A DNA stretch of 64,000 nt. Source: Ilyonectria destructans (lineage: Eukaryota > Ascomycota > Sordariomycetes > Hypocreales > Nectriaceae). The notes under the pieces were generated by a model. The model was not told the origin of the DNA and did no database searches. It worked only from the letters and a program-made list of their open reading frames with translations. Positions 6,132 through 14,336 of this stretch are shown here, one piece after another (positions within the stretch are counted from its first letter, which is position 1; every line of letters begins with the position of its first letter). Position numbers and translations under genes: made by a program. Location of the stretch: the NCBI GenBank assembly GCA_020740775.1, contig JAHEWK010000002.1, positions 1,116,001 through 1,180,000 on the forward strand, written 5' to 3'.

Positions 6132-8364
6132 GGTGGGCGAATTTTGGTGATGGATGTGTATTGGACGCTGTGGATTTGCTTTGTAGGTTGGCAATATGTT
6201 TGACGAATTTGAGAGGTACCCAAGCGCTTTTATGAAGAGCACGCGGAGCCAAGTCCTAGACCTTTTTGCTTAGAGTCGTGACGTCGTCATGCTCATCATG
6301 TCGTGGTGTCAATGGGGAGCCCATGTGACGTCACTAGGATACCCGCCACGGGAGCCACGCGACAGCCCTTTGGGGTGGCTATTGACGTTATGGGAAAGAA
6401 TGGCGTGCGAGAGCGAATCAAAAGACGGCGATGCGCGATAAGTGAGTGGTGTCATTGAAGAGGACGGCCCGAGGTGTGAGTTTGTTGTTGTGGTGGGCGG
6501 CTTGGAGTAACGGCTGCTCGAGGGGCTGAGATGCAATGACGCCTTTGAGGACTGATGCTGTTTAACACTATTTTGCCACACCAGCACCAAATGTTTTACA
6601 GTCCAAAAGGATCAAAGATGTGAATTTTCGACAATAGCATTAAAGCTCAGGGACCTTAAGTTCTTAGAAATAGGTACTGGTTCTTTCCTACCTATCTGAG
6701 GACTGCTCAAGTATTGTAGTCGAAATACGTGTAGTGCCGACTGCCATAACGAAATGTGGTTTAGGATGCCGCCAAGAACACGTATATCTAATCCTTGTTG
6801 CATATCCCATCACTATCTGGCGCTCAGTATGAATAGTTTAGATCTTGTGTCTCGAAATTGGGGACCTGGTGGATGGAGACCGTTATTCCATGAGGCCACT
6901 GGGTATGACATAACCACTCAAGCGGTGCTCTGCTTGCGTCGCCACGATTGGATAATCTGGCCCTCCACATCACGCCCTTGCATCCAAGGACCCCTTCAAA
7001 GGCAGTCGCCACCCCTCTCTGCTCACGCCCAAACCACTGCCTTGGCCTTTTATCTAAGTTACCATTCAAGGCCCCAGCAGAGTGGCCAACGGATACCCCG
7101 CGGTGCAGCTCTAAATTGATTACAGATGCATCACAAATCCCTTTTGAATCGGGCATTGTGTTCCTCATGTCTCACTCCCCCTGTGGACATGATGGTGTCG
7201 GCGCGACCCCAGGACGCGGACGTGGAGGCGCTCTCGAGTGAATTCCGGCCGTGAGACCAGGAGGCGAGGGAGGCGTCAACCTCCCCCTCGGATGTGGAGT
7301 TGACTACAGGATAAAATTAATGCAGAAAGTACAACAAGAGAAGCAATTTAATATGTCTCTAATAATAGGCAAGGGCTTGTAAAAACCCTTATTATAAAAC
7401 TTCTAATGCGCGGGGGAGATAAACAACAGGGAGGACTAAAAGACCCAACATCCCGCCCAAAGGCTGATGAAGGCTGTGTTGGCGGTGCGTCTTCAATAGC
7501 TAGGCAGGCCCTTCCAAAGCTGCATTGGCGGGACGAAACTGAGAAGAACAGGACATTCGCCTTCGCTGACCGAGCCACCCAAAACTTCCAGGTTCTCCGG
7601 CCATGCGCTCGACCGTGGCTCGGAGTATAAATGATGACTCCGGTGTCCAGGTGCGCTTCTTGGTCCAGGGTATTCGGGATGGTGCTTTGATAGCCAGTCC
7701 AGCTCCGCTCGGATCATCACTGTAAATGGGGTCTGGGCCGTGCCTGGTGCGGACCGGTAATAGGCTGCCACGCCTAATGCTAGAAATGCTGGAGGTTTAC
7801 TTGGACTGCGCGACCAACACGGAGACAGCTGGGCTTCTGGAAACCTGGGCGCAGTCACTCCAATTTATCTCCCCGCCTAGGCAAAGGTTACGCAGACGGC
7901 ATAAGACAGATCCCAGGGATTGATGTCCTGTCGCGGGGCAGGGAGTCGTTGCGCAGGCTTGTCTTCTAAGCGGAATGCCCGATTCGAGTCCCGCCACCCT
8001 GGGGCCATCGAGCTTCACTGACCCCGGAACGTATGGGCGGCAAGATCGGGGATCAGAGTCATGCCATGCTGCGAGTAAAGGCTCGAACAGATGCACTTGA
8101 CACAGTCATTCTACCTTCCACTTATCCTATAACAACCAAAAACGATCACAAACTGCAGACAAAAAAAAACCAGGGTAAAGAGGAGGCTGTAAAGCGACAG
8201 CTACAATAAAGAAAGTTGGTTGCGGCGCAGCAGCCGCTGAGCCTGCGAGAAAGGATATCTGAGGTACTGATATTCAGCCGGCATTCCCCGCTTTCCTCCG
8301 TCGCAACTTTATATCTTCTCAGAGCTGCTATATTTCTTTGGAGAATGCGTCACGTACAATTGTG
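6132..8364. other. intergenic region with repeat remnant
   Basis: No supported gene. The first part is the promoter of the gene starting at 6131. From about 7320 the DNA turns AT-rich and then enters a dispersed repeat (7421-7580). The 7600-8300 stretch has only short overlapping ORFs on both strands and may be decayed element sequence. Confidence 0.45.
7421..7580 (+). repeat. dispersed repeat, copy also at 49397-49560
   Basis: GAGGACTAAAAGACCCAACA followed by CAAAGGCTGATGAAGGCTGT is shared almost exactly with 49407 onward. Similarity then fades into GAGAAGAACAGGACATT versus a more A-rich version at 49500-49530. No ORF of known family is carried. Confidence 0.7.
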
Positions 8365-9579
8365 ATGATCTCCACCGACCCAAGCTCCCTTTCCTATCGA
8401 TTCCACAACGCATTGCTGATGAGAAGGTTGCGAGCGAGATTTCCGCTGCGGAAACAGCATTGGACTGGCGACAATTCACTGGAAATTCATCAACAGCAAG
8501 AGACAAGCTGTGGCCACAGCCCACCTGGTCCTCCATCGCGCCACGAGACCGATCTCGGGCCACCCTCTCAGAGCACTCCAGTTCCCGCCTTCCCGGACGG
8601 AGTTGAAGTTCTGCACGACTGCCCCGACGCCACGATTGACATCTGCTTTGTCCACGGTCTGAGTGGCAATCGGATTAGCACCTGGACCGCTAAAGGGCAG
8701 TCCAAACCCTGGCCCGAGACGCTCCTGCCGCCCAAGCTCAGCAGGGCTCGCATTCTCACGTACGGCTACGACGCGTACATTGTGCGGAAACCGGTCGCAT
8801 CGACAAACGGGCTGATCGATCACGCCACGAACCTTTTGAACGATCTGACGACCGACAGAGCCCGTTCCAATGCATCCTCTCGACCGCTAGTCTTTGTCGC
8901 CCACAGCCTGGGCGGCCTCGTCTGTAAGGAAGCGGTTCTTCTCTCCCGAAACAACCCCGAACCGCACCTCCGGTGTATATTCGACTGCACCAAGGGCATC
9001 GTATTCCTGGGCACGCCTCACAGGGGATCCTGGATAGCCGACTGGGCCAGGATACCGGCTTCGGCCCTTGGAGTCGTCAAGTCCACCAACAAGTCGTTGT
9101 TGAAGATCTTGGAGACAGAAGACAAGTACCTCCAGTCCGTTCAGGATCGGTTCTGGTCTATGGTACGGGAACAGCAACAGGCCGGCCGGGATCTCGAGGT
9201 TACGTGCTTCTTTGAAGAACTGCCCTTGTCCGGGGTTGGAAAAGTCGTCTCTAAGGACTCGGCTACCCTTGAAAGTTACAACGCGATCAGCATCCACGCT
9301 AACCATAGGAATATGGTCAAGTTTAGCTCCGTGGACGACAATGGATTCAAAAGGCTGCTTGGCGAGCTGATTAGATGGGAATCACAAATCAGGAACTTAG
9401 CTATTAGTCAACCAACACGATCTATAGAAGAAGCGCAGATGAAAAGACCAGCCAACTCGTCCTTTAACAACTTTGGCTCTGGCGACCAACTCAATGCTCC
9501 TGACGGCACCGTGAACAAGAGCATAGGCGATGGCAAGCACTTCGCTGGGGCTACTTTCTCCGGCCCAGTGCAATTCTGA
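8365..9579 (+). CDS. SesB-like alpha/beta hydrolase with C-terminal sigma amyloid motif
   Basis: Single exon, 404 residues from the first ATG (the frame is open slightly upstream without an ATG; ATG 8419 is a possible later start). The hydrolase domain spans about residues 80-330. FVHGLSGN near residue 97 is the oxyanion-side motif, VFVAHSLGGLVCKEAV carries nucleophile Ser181 in A-H-S-L-G, and FLGTPHRGS and a late IHANHRNM (candidate catalytic His) follow. This matches the PGAP1/DUF676-like SesB lipase family of fungal death-pathway effectors. Residues 367-404 form a Gly/Asn-rich motif (GSGDQLNAP then GDGKHFAGA then GPVQF) matching the sigma amyloid motif. The same motif ends the convergent SesA gene and begins the NLR downstream. 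Expected role, from family knowledge: membrane- or lipid-directed cell-death or signalling effector activated by amyloid templating. Confidence 0.86.
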   Translation: MISTDPSSLSYRFHNALLMRRLRARFPLRKQHWTGDNSLEIHQQQETSCGHSPPGPPSRHETDLGPPSQSTPVPAFPDGVEVLHDCPDATIDICFVHGLSGNRISTWTAKGQSKPWPETLLPPKLSRARILTYGYDAYIVRKPVASTNGLIDHATNLLNDLTTDRARSNASSRPLVFVAHSLGGLVCKEAVLLSRNNPEPHLRCIFDCTKGIVFLGTPHRGSWIADWARIPASALGVVKSTNKSLLKILETEDKYLQSVQDRFWSMVREQQQAGRDLEVTCFFEELPLSGVGKVVSKDSATLESYNAISIHANHRNMVKFSSVDDNGFKRLLGELIRWESQIRNLAISQPTRSIEEAQMKRPANSSFNNFGSGDQLNAPDGTVNKSIGDGKHFAGATFSGPVQF

Positions 9580-9664
9580 GGGGTACGGGAGCAGCGTTCT
9601 CGAGAGCAAGTGTCTGAAGATATATAGGCAGAGGTCGATCGAGGAGGCTGCGAATCTAATCCTA

Positions 9665-9880
9665 GTTTTTTATTTTTATTTTCTTTATTTTAGCTTTACT
9701 TAATATTATAATAGATTAAAGCTATACAGTATTTTCAAACAATAAAGATAAATATTTAGTGCTACACTCAGTATCTAATCTTAGGTATATTATATTGCTT
9801 TATACTTCTGCGTTTAATTCAAATTCTTTTATTAAACCTAACATAACTGAGGATATTATACTTAAGCTATATTACCAAGC
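9665..9880. other. AT-rich intergenic block between the two effectors
   Basis: Long TTATTTTTATT-type runs with many TA dinucleotides sit between the 3' ends of the SesB-like and SesA genes. It resembles a RIP-mutated insertion or an AT-rich terminator region. No ORF of substance. Confidence 0.5.
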
Positions 9881-9990
9881 GCACAAGAACGTCTGCTCGC
9901 ACTACCTGGACATAACCCAGCTAACAACGGGTAACATACTGAACTAGTCTTCCACCTTCTGGTAGTAGTCCTTCTCAGCTCGGATTGTTA

Positions 9991-10611
9991 TCAAAAATGC
10001 ACTGGACCAAAGAAACTAGCCCCAGCGAAGTGCTTACCATCGCCTGTGCTCTTGTTCACAGTGCCGCCAGGAGCGTTGAGTTGGTCGCCAGAGCCAAAGT
10101 GCGTAAAAGAGTCGCCCGACCTCTCGTTCGGCACGGACGCCTCCATCTTTGATAGCTTCTCGATGGCACCGCGTAACTCGTTGACTTGGTCATCCATTTC
10201 TACTCTGATCGTACAGTTCTCGGCTAAGACAAATATATTATTCATCATCCCCATCATCAAGACCTCTATCGTTTTTCCCTTGCCTTCTTGTCTTACGGCC
10301 TCTTTGTAACCCTCGAACCTCGAAGTCTCCGGTGCTTGGGCGACGGCGTTGAATATACTCTTGGACAGCTCTGCGTTGGTATTGCACGCCTTCAGTGAGT
10401 CTAGGGCGTTTTGGGGATCTCTGGCTGCATTGTGTCCGCCCAGTTGAGTCTTGGCAGTTTGGAGAGCCTGCCGGACAAGGAGCAGCCCTCGACCCGCTTC
10501 ATGGAAAGCCTCCCGGAGACCCTTGTCATCTTTGACAACATTGTAGTGATCTGTGGCGGCCTCGAGGGTGGTGATCGTGCTCGAGATCAAGTCTGTGACG
10601 GTAGCTGCCAT
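9991..10611 (-). CDS. SesA-domain protein with C-terminal sigma amyloid motif
   Basis: Single exon, 206 residues, ATG at 10611. Residues 1-160 are helical: an N-terminal TDLISSTITTLEAATDHYN segment, then FHEAGRGLLLVRQALQTAK, later CNTNAELSKSIFNAVAQA and a KGKTIEVLMMGMMNN helix. This pattern fits the SesA/Goodbye-like N-terminal domain found on fungal NLRs and as stand-alone effectors. Residues 169-206 are a sigma motif (GSGDQLNAP, GDGKHFAGA, GPVHF) nearly identical to that of the SesB-like hydrolase, down to the DNA. It is convergent with the hydrolase gene and divergent from the NLR. Inferred role: a second downstream partner recruited when the NLR forms a sigma amyloid seed. Confidence 0.82.
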   Translation of the reverse strand: MAATVTDLISSTITTLEAATDHYNVVKDDKGLREAFHEAGRGLLLVRQALQTAKTQLGGHNAARDPQNALDSLKACNTNAELSKSIFNAVAQAPETSRFEGYKEAVRQEGKGKTIEVLMMGMMNNIFVLAENCTIRVEMDDQVNELRGAIEKLSKMEASVPNERSGDSFTHFGSGDQLNAPGGTVNKSTGDGKHFAGASFFGPVHF

Positions 10612-11683
10612 CTTTGGGCGGAAGACTAAATCCGGGCTGTGGATATGCTCCTATGCTGCCAACGTCTGAGGCTTATTAGCGGTTGATACCTTGCTCCCCA
10701 AGATTCGGGTCTCGAACAATTACGGAGAAGGAAAGTGTCAGTCGGATTAGCGAAGGGAAAACGCAGAGCGCTGAGAACGTTGGATAATAAAGACGCCTGG
10801 CTTCCTACACGCCTGTGGAAGATGCGGGCACTCCACAGTATCGCGCATGGGCAATCTAGATTCTCATTTGCTGGGTGTGTCACGTCTCAAAGATGTTGTC
10901 TGATCAGCCGCCCTCTGAGCCTGCATCGCTACGTGTGATGTGGCTGCAGGTTAGCAGCCTGAATTGGTTCAGGACATGCCGATACTCGACGACAATGGTA
11001 ACTGATTGGCTCATCGTGCCGACTTTATGCATGTGCGTGAAGACGGTGAAGCTGACAATGAAGCCAATGTGCGAAAATTTTCAAATTGGGCACAGCCTGA
11101 TCCATTCTGCACATCTGGCATCTATCGGACTGAACGGACCCCGCCCATCCCCTGGATCAGCTGGTGCGTTGCCTGGAGAGGATTGGGGAGGAGCGTGCGG
11201 CTCTCGAGCGACTCGTCCTGGGCTGACACCCCAATCCGACGCCAGAGGTGCTTTCCCGCTTCCCAAAAGTATCCGACTATTTTTCGGCTCGCGAGCAAAA
11301 CCTCTACATGTTGTACACGTTTTGATCTTCTCAAGACGACCCCAGTCTCGTTTGTATCCGTCTTTGCCGTCACATTTTCGCGAAGCCCTATTGTGGCAGC
11401 TGGCCATCCAGCCTCCTCCCCGCTGTGGCCGCCAACGAGTAAACCGTCGGACTGACCTCGTCGCCCTCACCGTTCCCAGGTGACTTCGCGTCGGCTCGCG
11501 CACCTGTCTTTTTTCGGCAGAGAGGAAGGGATTTTGGTAGTCCGGTTCTCACCCTGCGTTGCCTCCTTTAGCCGGAACTACAGGCCGTAGTAAGCCCTTG
11601 GATAGATCATACTCCTGGTGCAACTCCGCTCATCTTTTTGTCGTGCCTCAGCCTTCTTCAATAGATCTAACATACTTTAGTCA
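10612..11683. promoter_or_regulatory. shared divergent promoter region of SesA gene and NLR
   Basis: About 1.07 kb separates the SesA start (minus strand) from the NLR start (plus strand). No supported gene was found. Both genes must initiate here, so common regulation is possible. No specific operator was recognised. Confidence 0.45.
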
Positions 11684-14336
11684 ATGGAGAGACACACATG
11701 CGAGATATTTACGCCACAGGAGCGGCCTCGGACTGGCGGGTTACAAGGTGAAACGGAGCGCACTGGGCCGTCTTCCCAGAGCTCATCATTTCACAGCTAC
11801 GGCACCGGGGACCAATTCAACACTCCTGACGGCGCTCAGAATGTCAGCAAAGGCAACGGCCCCCAATTCCCTGGAGCCAAATTCAAAGGACCTGTGTATT
11901 TTGGTAAGAGCGGGTGTTTTCGTCTATACCCTAGAGATTCTTAACTCATCATATCGTCCAGGCACACAAGAACCTGTGCATCCGGTACAAGATTGCTTAA
12001 AATCGCTGGCTTTTCTAGAAATGGTCAGTCGGTTCCACGATATCGATACCGCCGCTCAGGGAACATGCCAGTGGCTACTTCAACACAAAATGTACACAAG
12101 CTGGGTTACTTGTGGTCGAGGCCTGCTCTGGATCAAAGGGAAGCCCGGTTCTGGGAAGTCCACGTTGCTGCGATACGCTCTAAACAAGGCTATGGAGATA
12201 CCTAATACCAGAGAGAACACCTTGGTCCTCTCATTCTTCTTCCACGGCCGTGGCTCTGAACTCCAAAAGACGCGGTTGGGCCTCTTCCGGTCGCTCCTTC
12301 ACCAGCTCCTCTGCCAGGTTCCTGACACACTGCAAGACCTCGTGGCCACTTTCCAACAACGGTGCGACACTGTTGGCCAGCAGGGTGTAAAGTGGCAGTG
12401 GCATCCGCACGAGCTGCAGCGCTTCTTCGAGTCATCGATTCCGAAGGTCTTGAAGACTCGCACAGTCTGGTTGTTCCTCGATGCGTTAGACGAATCTGGC
12501 GAGGACAGTGCGGTCAAGTTAGTCGACGGGTTCCAGTCCTTGATACAGACGCTCCCGACCATCGGCTTGAAACATTTCCACGTCTGCTTCACGTGTCGTC
12601 ACTACCCGATTCTGGAAGTGGATTGTGCACTCCAAATATGCGCAGAGAACGAAAACAGGAAAGATATATCGACGTTCGTTCACTACAAGCTCTCTTCGTT
12701 CTCGTCGGCAATTCCGGACTTGATAACATCACGCGCTCAGGGTGTTTTCCTGTGGGCTTGGCTTGTAGTGAAGCAAGTTCTGAACCTTAACCGAAGGGGT
12801 ATCAAGTTAGATAGAATAGAGGCTGAAGTCCATTTGGTCCCTCAAGAGCTCGACGACTTATACCGCGAACTCATCCGAAACATGGGCCCGGACTCTCTGA
12901 AACTCATCGAATGGATCTGCTTTGCCATGAAGCCCTTGTCACTAGATGAATTGCGATGGGCTATGATCGTCGAGACCGAACGCCCACACAAGTCATTACA
13001 CGAATACCTGAGTGCAGGGGATTACCCATCCAACAACGCCGGGATGAAGAGGCGACTTCAGACGCTGAGCTGCGGCCTTGCCGAAGTCGATTCGGATAGG
13101 AAGATTGTCCAGTTCATCCACCAGTCCGTCAAGGACTTTTTCATCGAGAAGGGCCTATCGGCTCTGAACGGGAGCCCGAGCACCGCCAAACCCGATTTTG
13201 TGGTCGGAATCGCACACTATCGCCTTTCTAGGACCTGCATACGCTACTTGGCGATGGAGGAGATCGGTCGGTCAGCAAGTCACGACGAGCCTTACCACTT
13301 GAGATCCAACTTTCTTTTCCTGCATTACGCCACGACCTCGTGGGTGGCGCACACGAAGCAAAGTGATGCTAGAAGGGTCCCTCAAGAGGATCTTCTGGAA
13401 TATTTCACCGGGCCATCAAACACTCTTGTGGAGCGATGGGTGCGTATATACAGAGCATTAGAGAGATATTCTGACGACTGTCCGCCCGAAGGGACTAGTC
13501 TAGTACACATTATGTCGAGGTATGGAGTGATAGGGGCGTTAGGGACCATTTTGGAAAGGGCGGACCAAATTGGCATTAATATCGACGGCAAAGATTCGTA
13601 TGGCCAGACGCCGCTGTGGTGGGCCGCCACGAAGGGGCATAAGGCCGTTGTGCAGCTGCTCCTCGACCGGGGCGCCCATATCGAGGCCGCGGATAAGGGG
13701 GGCCGGACGCCGCTGTTGTGGGCCGCCGCGAAGGGGCATAAGGCCGTTGTGCGGCTGCTCCTCGACCGGGGCGCCCATATCGAGGCCGCGGATAAGTGGG
13801 GCCGGACGCCGCTGTTGTGGGCCGCCGCGAAGGGGCATGAGGCTGTTGTGCAGCTGCTCCTCAACCGGGGCGCCCATATCGAGGCCGCAGATAAGTGGGG
13901 CCGGACGCCGCTGTTGTGGGCCGTCGCGGAGGGGCATGAGGCCGCTGTGCAGCTGCTCCTCGACCGGGGCGCCTATATTGAGGCTGCAGATGAGTATGGA
14001 GGCCAGACGCTGCTGTCGTGGGCTGCTATGAAGGGGTATGAGGCCGTCGTGCGGCTGCTCCTCGATCGGGGCGCCTATATCGAGGCTGCAGATAAAGACG
14101 GGGGCCAGACGCCGCTATCGTGGGCTGCTATGAAGGGGCATGCGGCCGTCGTGCGGCTGCTCCTCGATCGGGGCGCCTATATCGACGCTGCGGATAGGGG
14201 GGACCGGACACCGCTGTCGTGGGCCGCCGCGGAGGGGCACGAGGCCGTCGTGTGGCTGCTCTTCGACCGGGGCGCTCATATCAAGGCCGCGGGTGACTGG
14301 GGCCGGCCTCCACCCCACCCAACCACCTGCTCCTGA
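11684..14336 (+). CDS. NLR: sigma motif - NACHT - ankyrin repeats
   Basis: Two exons, 11684-11903 and 11962-14336 (intron GTAAGA ... CCAG), encode 864 residues. Exon 1 encodes a short leader plus the sigma motif (residues 36-73: GTGDQFNTP, GNGPQFPGA, GPVYF) and stops right after it. The NACHT module follows: the TCQWLL pre-NACHT stretch, Walker A GKPGSGKST at 133-141, Walker B VWLFLDALDE near 242-251, then the winged-helix part. Residues 621 to the end are ankyrin repeats of 33-34 residues, seven complete and one cut short. The unspliced reading is also open, giving a misleading 925-codon frame without the motif. The architecture is that of fungal STAND/NLR receptors in het-s/NWD2- and SesA/SesB-type amyloid pathways. 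Expected role: ligand sensing by the ankyrins, ATP-dependent oligomerisation, then amyloid seeding of the two neighbouring effectors. The array ends abruptly, so the C terminus may be truncated. Confidence 0.88.
13602..14333 (+). repeat. near-identical 99/102-bp ankyrin-coding tandem repeats
   Basis: Units start at 13602, 13701, 13800, 13899, 14001, 14103, 14202 and 14301 (99 bp, or 102 bp where an extra Gly codon occurs). The eighth diverges after about two codons. Differences concentrate at a few codons (AAAKGH/AVAEGH, VVQ/VVR/VVW, GAH/GAY, LLW/LSW). Such high internal identity is known for fungal NLR repeat domains that vary by unit exchange. Confidence 0.92.

Follow-up and report, generated by a model that had tools for sequence, protein, structure and literature searches.

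How do amyloid-signalling motifs stay matched between a receptor and its effectors when the cluster that encodes them has been duplicated? The question is raised by three adjacent genes of Ilyonectria destructans, encoding a SesB-like hydrolase, SesA and a NACHT-type receptor with ankyrin repeats, at 8365-14336 of a 64,000-nucleotide stretch of DNA to which we refer as the window (G000:C12:1116001-1180000; the assembly has 74 contigs and 71.7 Mb). We consider it very probable that these genes make up a ses-type sigma cluster, whose receptor would pass a templated amyloid fold through the sigma motif to SesA and SesB and so damage the cell, and likely that a tail was copied between effectors after this block and its relative on contig C73 split.

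The window carries a sigma (ses-type) cluster by make-up

Gene limits read from the window sequence confirmed the positions proposed in an earlier reading of the letters alone (the sequence-only reading), and the proteins were scanned against Pfam:

8365-9579, plus strand: sesB-like gene encoding an alpha/beta hydrolase of 404 aa that ends in a sigma motif (ATG at 8365, stop at 9577-9579; Pfam)
8899-8916, plus strand: AHSLGG, nucleophile-elbow-like motif of SesB, residues 179-184 (sequence)
9454-9576, plus strand: sigma motif of SesB, residues 364-404, reaching the stop codon (NACHT_sigma E 1.8e-15)
9991-10611, minus strand: sesA gene, 206 aa, SesA domain at 9-127 and sigma motif at 167-206 (Pfam SesA, 121.4 bits)
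9994-10113, minus strand: sigma motif of SesA (NACHT_sigma E 1.8e-17)
11684-14336, plus strand: receptor gene, NACHT-type with ankyrin repeats, 864 aa, exons 11684-11903 and 11962-14336 (sequence, Pfam)
11684-11903, plus strand: first exon of the receptor, holding the N-terminal sigma motif (residues 34-74), which starts at 11783 (NACHT_sigma E 4.4e-15)
11904-11961, plus strand: predicted receptor intron, 58 nt, GTAAGA...CAG (paralogous introns at the same place)
11962-14336, plus strand: second exon of the receptor, coding for the NACHT-type NTPase and the ankyrin repeats (sequence, Pfam)
12060-12599, plus strand: STAND/NACHT-type NTPase domain of the receptor, residues 107-286 (NPHP3_N, 108.2 bits, above cut-off)
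13602-14306, plus strand: ankyrin array, about seven units of 99 bp (Tandem Repeats Finder, 7.1 copies, 86% match)

The NACHT_sigma profile matched all three proteins above its cut-off of 27.6 bits (SesB 57.2, SesA 63.6, receptor 56), which bears out the proposal that they form a sigma-motif receptor/SesA/SesB module. The motifs read FGSGDQLNAPDGTVNKSIGDGKHFAGATFSGPVQF in SesB, FGSGDQLNAPGGTVNKSTGDGKHFAGASFFGPVHF in SesA and YGTGDQFNTPDGAQNVSKGNGPQFPGAKFKGPVYF in the receptor. As the sequence-only reading had it, the motif is C-terminal in both effectors (residues 364-404 of 404 in SesB, 167-206 of 206 in SesA) and N-terminal in the receptor (34-74 of 864). Its claim of one common motif on the three genes also stands, with an amendment to its description of two repeats in 38 residues: the Pfam match is 40-41 residues long, and a third unit separates the two G-x-G-x-Q/H units, giving the series G-S/T-G-D-Q, D/G-G-T/A-V/Q-N, G-x-G-x-Q/H. 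This fits the A-B-A form of the sigma motif given in PMC3321046. The whole 71.7-Mb genome yielded 12 NACHT_sigma matches at E <= 0.001 (21 candidates scored), and 11 of the 12 exceed the cut-off. Three lie in the window, four in one block on C73, three on C1 and one each on C67 and C74. Because the three in the window fall within 2.45 kb, the sharing of the motif goes beyond chance. By its make-up the trio is thus a genuine ses-type cluster and, from its gene sequences, an open-reading member of a known system.

The bodies of the proteins agree with this assignment to differing degrees. The SesA domain (PF17107) scored 121.4 bits against a cut-off of 26.3. The SesB hydrolase matched DUF676 at 20.7 bits, barely above the cut-off of 20.3; Ser181 in its AHSLGG motif is the predicted catalytic residue by analogy with the hydrolase family, and no Protein Data Bank (PDB) chain matched SesB by sequence at E <= 0.1. 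In the receptor, a P-loop (GKPGSGKST, 12138-12164) lies within the region matched by NPHP3_N, a STAND NTPase model; the plain NACHT model reached 21.9 bits, below its cut-off of 26.7. Its ankyrin repeats scored 261 bits with Ank_2, above cut-off. Similarity of ankyrin units (six per array) was 0.859 and 0.818 within the two arrays compared and 0.789 between them, and internal repeat conservation of this kind is described for fungal receptors in PMC4986451.

The sequence-only reading made its case for the receptor hinge on removal of the intron at 11904-11961. In two paralogous receptors the corresponding position holds an intron with the same GTAAGA donor, 49 nt long in one and 63 nt in the other, and each of the three introns, once removed, brings exon 1 into the NACHT frame; the last residue of the window receptor's sigma motif straddles the splice site. 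Retention would give stops, in the window 13 residues past the motif. A retained intron is therefore disfavoured by comparison with the paralogues. The 5' intron of het-eN, the receptor gene of the s locus of Nectria haematococca, had likewise been overlooked and had concealed its motif, as recounted in PMC3321046.

A SesB tail has likely been replaced since the block split

The window at 7.58-14.82 kb aligns with C73 at 2407.9-2415.0 kb, the main pieces being 77-84% identical. The C73 block (2405-2415 kb) has its genes in the same order and orientation as the window (SesB plus, SesA minus, receptor plus), with an extra gene beside SesB: an inverted receptor with a differing ankyrin array, here receptor B, the one at the aligned position being receptor C. 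The SesA frame of the C73 block is broken. A truncated receptor with one internal stop lies at 2397.6-2399.3 kb of C73, and fragments resembling a gutted inverted copy lie further on (a 3' portion of a receptor at 2429.4-2430.4 kb and a 5' portion of SesB at 2441.1 kb). From the block and these remnants, the cluster seems to have been copied, moved and lost as a unit. Elsewhere in the genome its parts are more numerous: the SesA profile found 16 matches, and the NACHT part of the receptor at least 89 match rows, which are rows and not genes (85 of 209 candidates scored).

We compared seven sigma tails of 38 codons (114 bases) each, three from the window and four from C73, with the bodies that carry them. 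Between the blocks the SesB bodies are 89.3% identical (hydrolase part 93.1%; synonymous divergence, dS, 0.214; nonsynonymous divergence, dN, 0.055) and the SesA bodies 82.4% (dS 0.224, the broken copy counted as two pieces). Before the ankyrins, the window receptor is 72.6% identical to receptor C and 67.3% to receptor B. Residue identity between the two SesB tails is only 66%. The SesA and SesB tails of the window, although on unrelated proteins, share 82% of residues and 88% of bases over the 38 codons, and the window SesB tail is closest to that of its SesA neighbour. The same likeness appears as an inverted repeat whose alignment stops at both stop codons:

9470-9579, plus strand: first arm of an inverted repeat of 110 bp, matching the SesA tail (10100-9991) at 90% identity (self-BLAST)

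Among codons whose amino acid is the same in both copies, 10 of 25 differ silently in the SesB tail pair against 42 of 317 in the body pair (p 0.002; 0.008 corrected for four pairs). This silent excess is limited to SesB among the four gene pairs tested: SesA has none (tail 5/28, body 18/125, p 0.77), and neither do the two receptor pairs (p 0.24 and 0.22). Because the SesB tails diverge relative to their bodies, show the silent excess, and the window SesB tail is nearest to that of SesA, we conclude that one SesB tail or more has likely been replaced since the split, by copying of a sigma tail from one effector to another. On the simplest view, the window SesB would have received the tail of SesA, since 411 bases separate the stops of these convergent genes and their tails differ silently in 5 of 31 codons, about the divergence that the bodies have accumulated since duplication (42/317 and 18/125). 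This direction is only the simplest reading, as the tail that was replaced may instead be that of the C73 SesB.

Alternatively, the tails diverged in place and resemble each other through amino-acid selection to match a partner, a reading that we hold to be somewhat improbable. It has a precedent in PMC3321046, where the extensions are reported to group by cluster and this is interpreted as co-evolution. It also agrees with the quartet of SesA and SesB tails from both blocks, in which silent sites by themselves do not pick a grouping (1, 0 and 2 sites for the three possible ones), and with the silent differences between the window SesA and the C73 SesB tails (5 of 22 codons), which are not clearly more than the 5 of 31 within the window. 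Amino-acid selection does not, however, predict the silent excess of the SesB tail, and the three quartet sites that group the tails by gene are confined to bases 5-7 of 114, the pattern of a copied tract with a breakpoint. It is the silent excess, and that only, which favours copying over loose constraint or co-evolution.

Besides the 5/22 comparison and the silent quartet sites, several results weigh against tail copying or against a trio matched throughout. All quartet sites together divide 7, 3 and 2 among the groupings. Amino-acid change proceeds at the same pace in the 21-residue linker beside the SesB tail and in the tail itself (p 1.0), and in two of three receptor pairs it is faster in the tail than in the body (p 3e-4 and 1e-4; third pair 0.89); fast amino-acid change is therefore not special to SesB, and only the silent excess is. 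The DNA tree of the seven tails has no starred branch. Ten clades were named, of which three were already in the tree and seven were put to the approximately unbiased (AU) test at a level of 0.05, with p values also given after correction by a factor of 7. The two SesB tails as one clade were rejected at p 0.011, which becomes 0.08 on correction. The three window tails as one clade were rejected too (p 0.006, corrected 0.045), and the window receptor motif is 53-55% identical to the motifs of both its neighbours, against 68% to that of the C73 SesB, so its presumed partners are the less similar ones.

Two subtypes of tail and the matching of partners

In the tree of the seven tails, the split 91/91 sets the window receptor, C73 SesB and receptor B apart from the window SesA, window SesB, C73 SesA and receptor C. 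The B unit reads T/A-Q-N-I/V-S in the first group and T-V-N-K-S in the other four tails. Greater likeness within a cluster than between orthologues, the published tendency, thus holds for the window SesA and SesB and not once the receptor is included (AU p 0.006). Judged from these tails, the window receptor retains the other tail type, while that of SesB was likely exchanged. Neither this difference of subtype nor the duplication was within reach of the sequence-only reading.

Further clade tests bear on the C73 block. A clade of C73 SesA, SesB and receptor B was rejected (AU p 0.020, corrected 0.14). The AU test did not reject the SesA pair (0.26), the window receptor with receptor C (0.24), C73 SesB with receptor B (0.38) or C73 SesA with receptor C (0.29). 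As the last two clades stand, there is room for two matched receptor-effector pairs inside the C73 block, which may exist there but are not demonstrated by the tails.

The same division suggests another reading, in which the window receptor is wired chiefly to effectors elsewhere, for example the C73 SesB of the same subtype, and its neighbours answer another receptor. The 91/91 split places the receptor in this way, and PMC7889193 describes HET-s and HELLF as having a common backbone yet not cross-seeding. Against it stand the lack of a starred branch and the published sigma partners, which are mostly linked genes with one unlinked case. We regard this wiring as unlikely. Only tentatively, and with some doubt, do we entertain the wider idea that the sigma tail of about 110 bp is an exchangeable address cassette: gene conversion between sesA and sesB, convergent and unrelated genes, after duplication would have overwritten the SesB tail, leaving two sigma dialects in one nucleus and a window receptor that matches effectors on another contig and not its neighbours.

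Relation to known systems and proposed mechanism

The sequence-only reading had called an ankyrin receptor with both effectors less familiar than the version with WD repeats, a type to which the NWD2 receptor of Podospora anserina belongs. This was wrong, and we reject the ankyrins as an unusual feature of the trio, since het-eN, the founding receptor, itself carries ankyrin repeats (PMC3321046). The same source lists ANK, TPR, WD and HEAT versions of the receptor, and PMC4986451 names NACHT-ANK proteins with prion-like motifs.

The closest system is the s locus of Nectria haematococca, whose sesA, sesB and het-eN encode the same three proteins as the window and are tied to the sigma infectious element (PMC3321046, PMC5485727). 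As described in PMC3321046, motif placement is the same (C-terminal in SesA and SesB, N-terminal in the receptor), as are the receptor's ankyrins and its 5' intron; SesA has 206 aa in the window and 210 codons in N. haematococca (PMC516043). The two loci differ in the B unit of the effectors, GTVNKS in the window against the published type GGTQNINT, in a window receptor motif that does not group with those of its neighbours, and in the second, syntenic, two-receptor block of the genome. A bistable phenotype, to which the SesA and SesB genes are tied in N. haematococca, is not known for the window locus. HELLP/SBP/PNT1 of Chaetomium globosum likewise unites a receptor, a HeLo-like effector and a putative lipase through a common amyloid motif (PMC5485727, PMC7889193), but that motif is of the PP (RHIM-like) family and the receptor has tetratricopeptide repeats. 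In NWD2/HET-S of P. anserina the N-terminal motif of the receptor templates the C-terminal region of the effector, as proposed here (PMC3321046); it differs in having the HET-s motif, in two copies on the effector (PMC4518210), and a single effector.

Our models for the trio are HET-S/NWD2, HELLP/PNT1 and the s locus, from which we predict that it forms amyloid, kills the cell and may propagate its own state, and how its partners are wired. Binding of a ligand by the ankyrin array would cause the NACHT domain to oligomerise, and the N-terminal sigma motifs of the oligomerised receptors would then stack into an amyloid. The free C-terminal motifs of SesA and SesB would take up the fold of this template, and the converted effectors would damage membranes or lipids. 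For SesA the body is probably a membrane-active domain related to HeLo; SesB is probably a lipase or esterase. For the sigma motif as carrier of the infectious element, the evidence is called indirect in PMC7889193.

Structure predictions gave limited help. AlphaFold2, run from one sequence each, gave SesA an all-helical body (predicted local distance difference test, pLDDT, 53; predicted template modelling score, pTM, 0.45) and SesB a pLDDT of 36. Foldseek with the SesA model returned 608 matches at E <= 10, of which not one reached E <= 0.001; a PDB sequence search with SesA returned one match (E 0.14). A profile built from five of the 16 SesA matches found six PDB matches at E <= 1, the best at 0.0069, none of them named HeLo or MLKL.

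Integrity of the block

Could the block be decaying and no longer at work? The receptor's C-terminus falls within an ankyrin repeat, leaving the last one short, and C73 carries a broken SesA and gutted, fragmentary copies. All three window genes are nevertheless open, and dN/dS between the blocks is 0.26 for the SesB body, 0.37 for the SesA body and 0.43-0.47 for the window receptor. Moreover, when the block was divided into 17 bins of 500 bases, only one exceeded the usual thresholds of both common indices for repeat-induced mutation, and it is the bin that holds a small AT-rich element. Decay is accordingly very unlikely in our view.

Repeat-induced mutation of the block is itself rejected, the sole passing bin, at 9.5 kb, being that of the element:

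9662-9772, plus strand: AT-rich dispersed element, 111 bp, between the convergent sesB and sesA ends (genome comparison)

The element is flanked by 8-bp direct repeats, ATCTAATC, at 9654-9661 and 9773-9780; scoring 40 of 192 candidates across the genome gave at least 39 other matches. The matching site of the C73 block has no such element, so, judging from this comparison, it was likely inserted after the duplication. Just upstream of the duplicated block, 7404-7504 is a short dispersed repeat found at five other places with 83-91% identity; one copy, at C12:1165396, lies within the window near 49.4 kb.

Related genes elsewhere in the genome

Beside the C73 block, a 74-bp minisatellite of about 36 copies adjoins receptor B (L025:4591-7131), and L010:3055-6430 encodes a PNP_UDP protein (46 bits) followed by a NACHT-ankyrin-like frame whose NACHT part is 32% identical. 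On contig C12, L022:4362-10000 has a SesB-like frame (65% identical) followed directly by a frame that looks NB-ARC-like by eye; going by these frames, the pair is possibly an all-in-one version of the same effector.

Sigma-like stretches occur on other architectures as well. A WD40-repeat frame at L013:8043-8825 (minus strand) has an N-terminus that appears sigma-like by eye, with no NACHT between; its first 55 residues had no Pfam match at E <= 1. Two proteins adjoin it, one of the PNP_UDP type and one small, and each has a sigma tail above the cut-off. At L012:2062-3393 (plus strand) a DUF7580 protein (119 bits) ends in a sigma-like stretch of 21.8 bits, below the cut-off, near a SesA match containing two stops. 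At L014:4474-7739 (plus strand) a sigma motif (28.2 bits) precedes a NACHT domain and DUF7104 repeats, which are not ANK, TPR, WD or HEAT.

Implications

Among open-licence PMC papers, as far as they were searched, we found neither tail exchange or conversion of an amyloid motif nor duplicated sigma clusters, which is weak evidence of absence. Gene conversion in the context of fungal amyloid signalling and NACHT-type receptors, in the passages of one paper that treats it, concerns receptors and their repeats. What is new here is likely the tail exchange between paralogous blocks, as read from their sequences, a modest observation; the trio was already known and alone would be one further example of a published system. 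The pair of blocks offers more, as a natural experiment: its seven sigma tails fall into two subtypes and sit on bodies whose relatedness is known, and with them one may ask how amyloid signalling motifs stay partner-matched yet diverge into separate channels.

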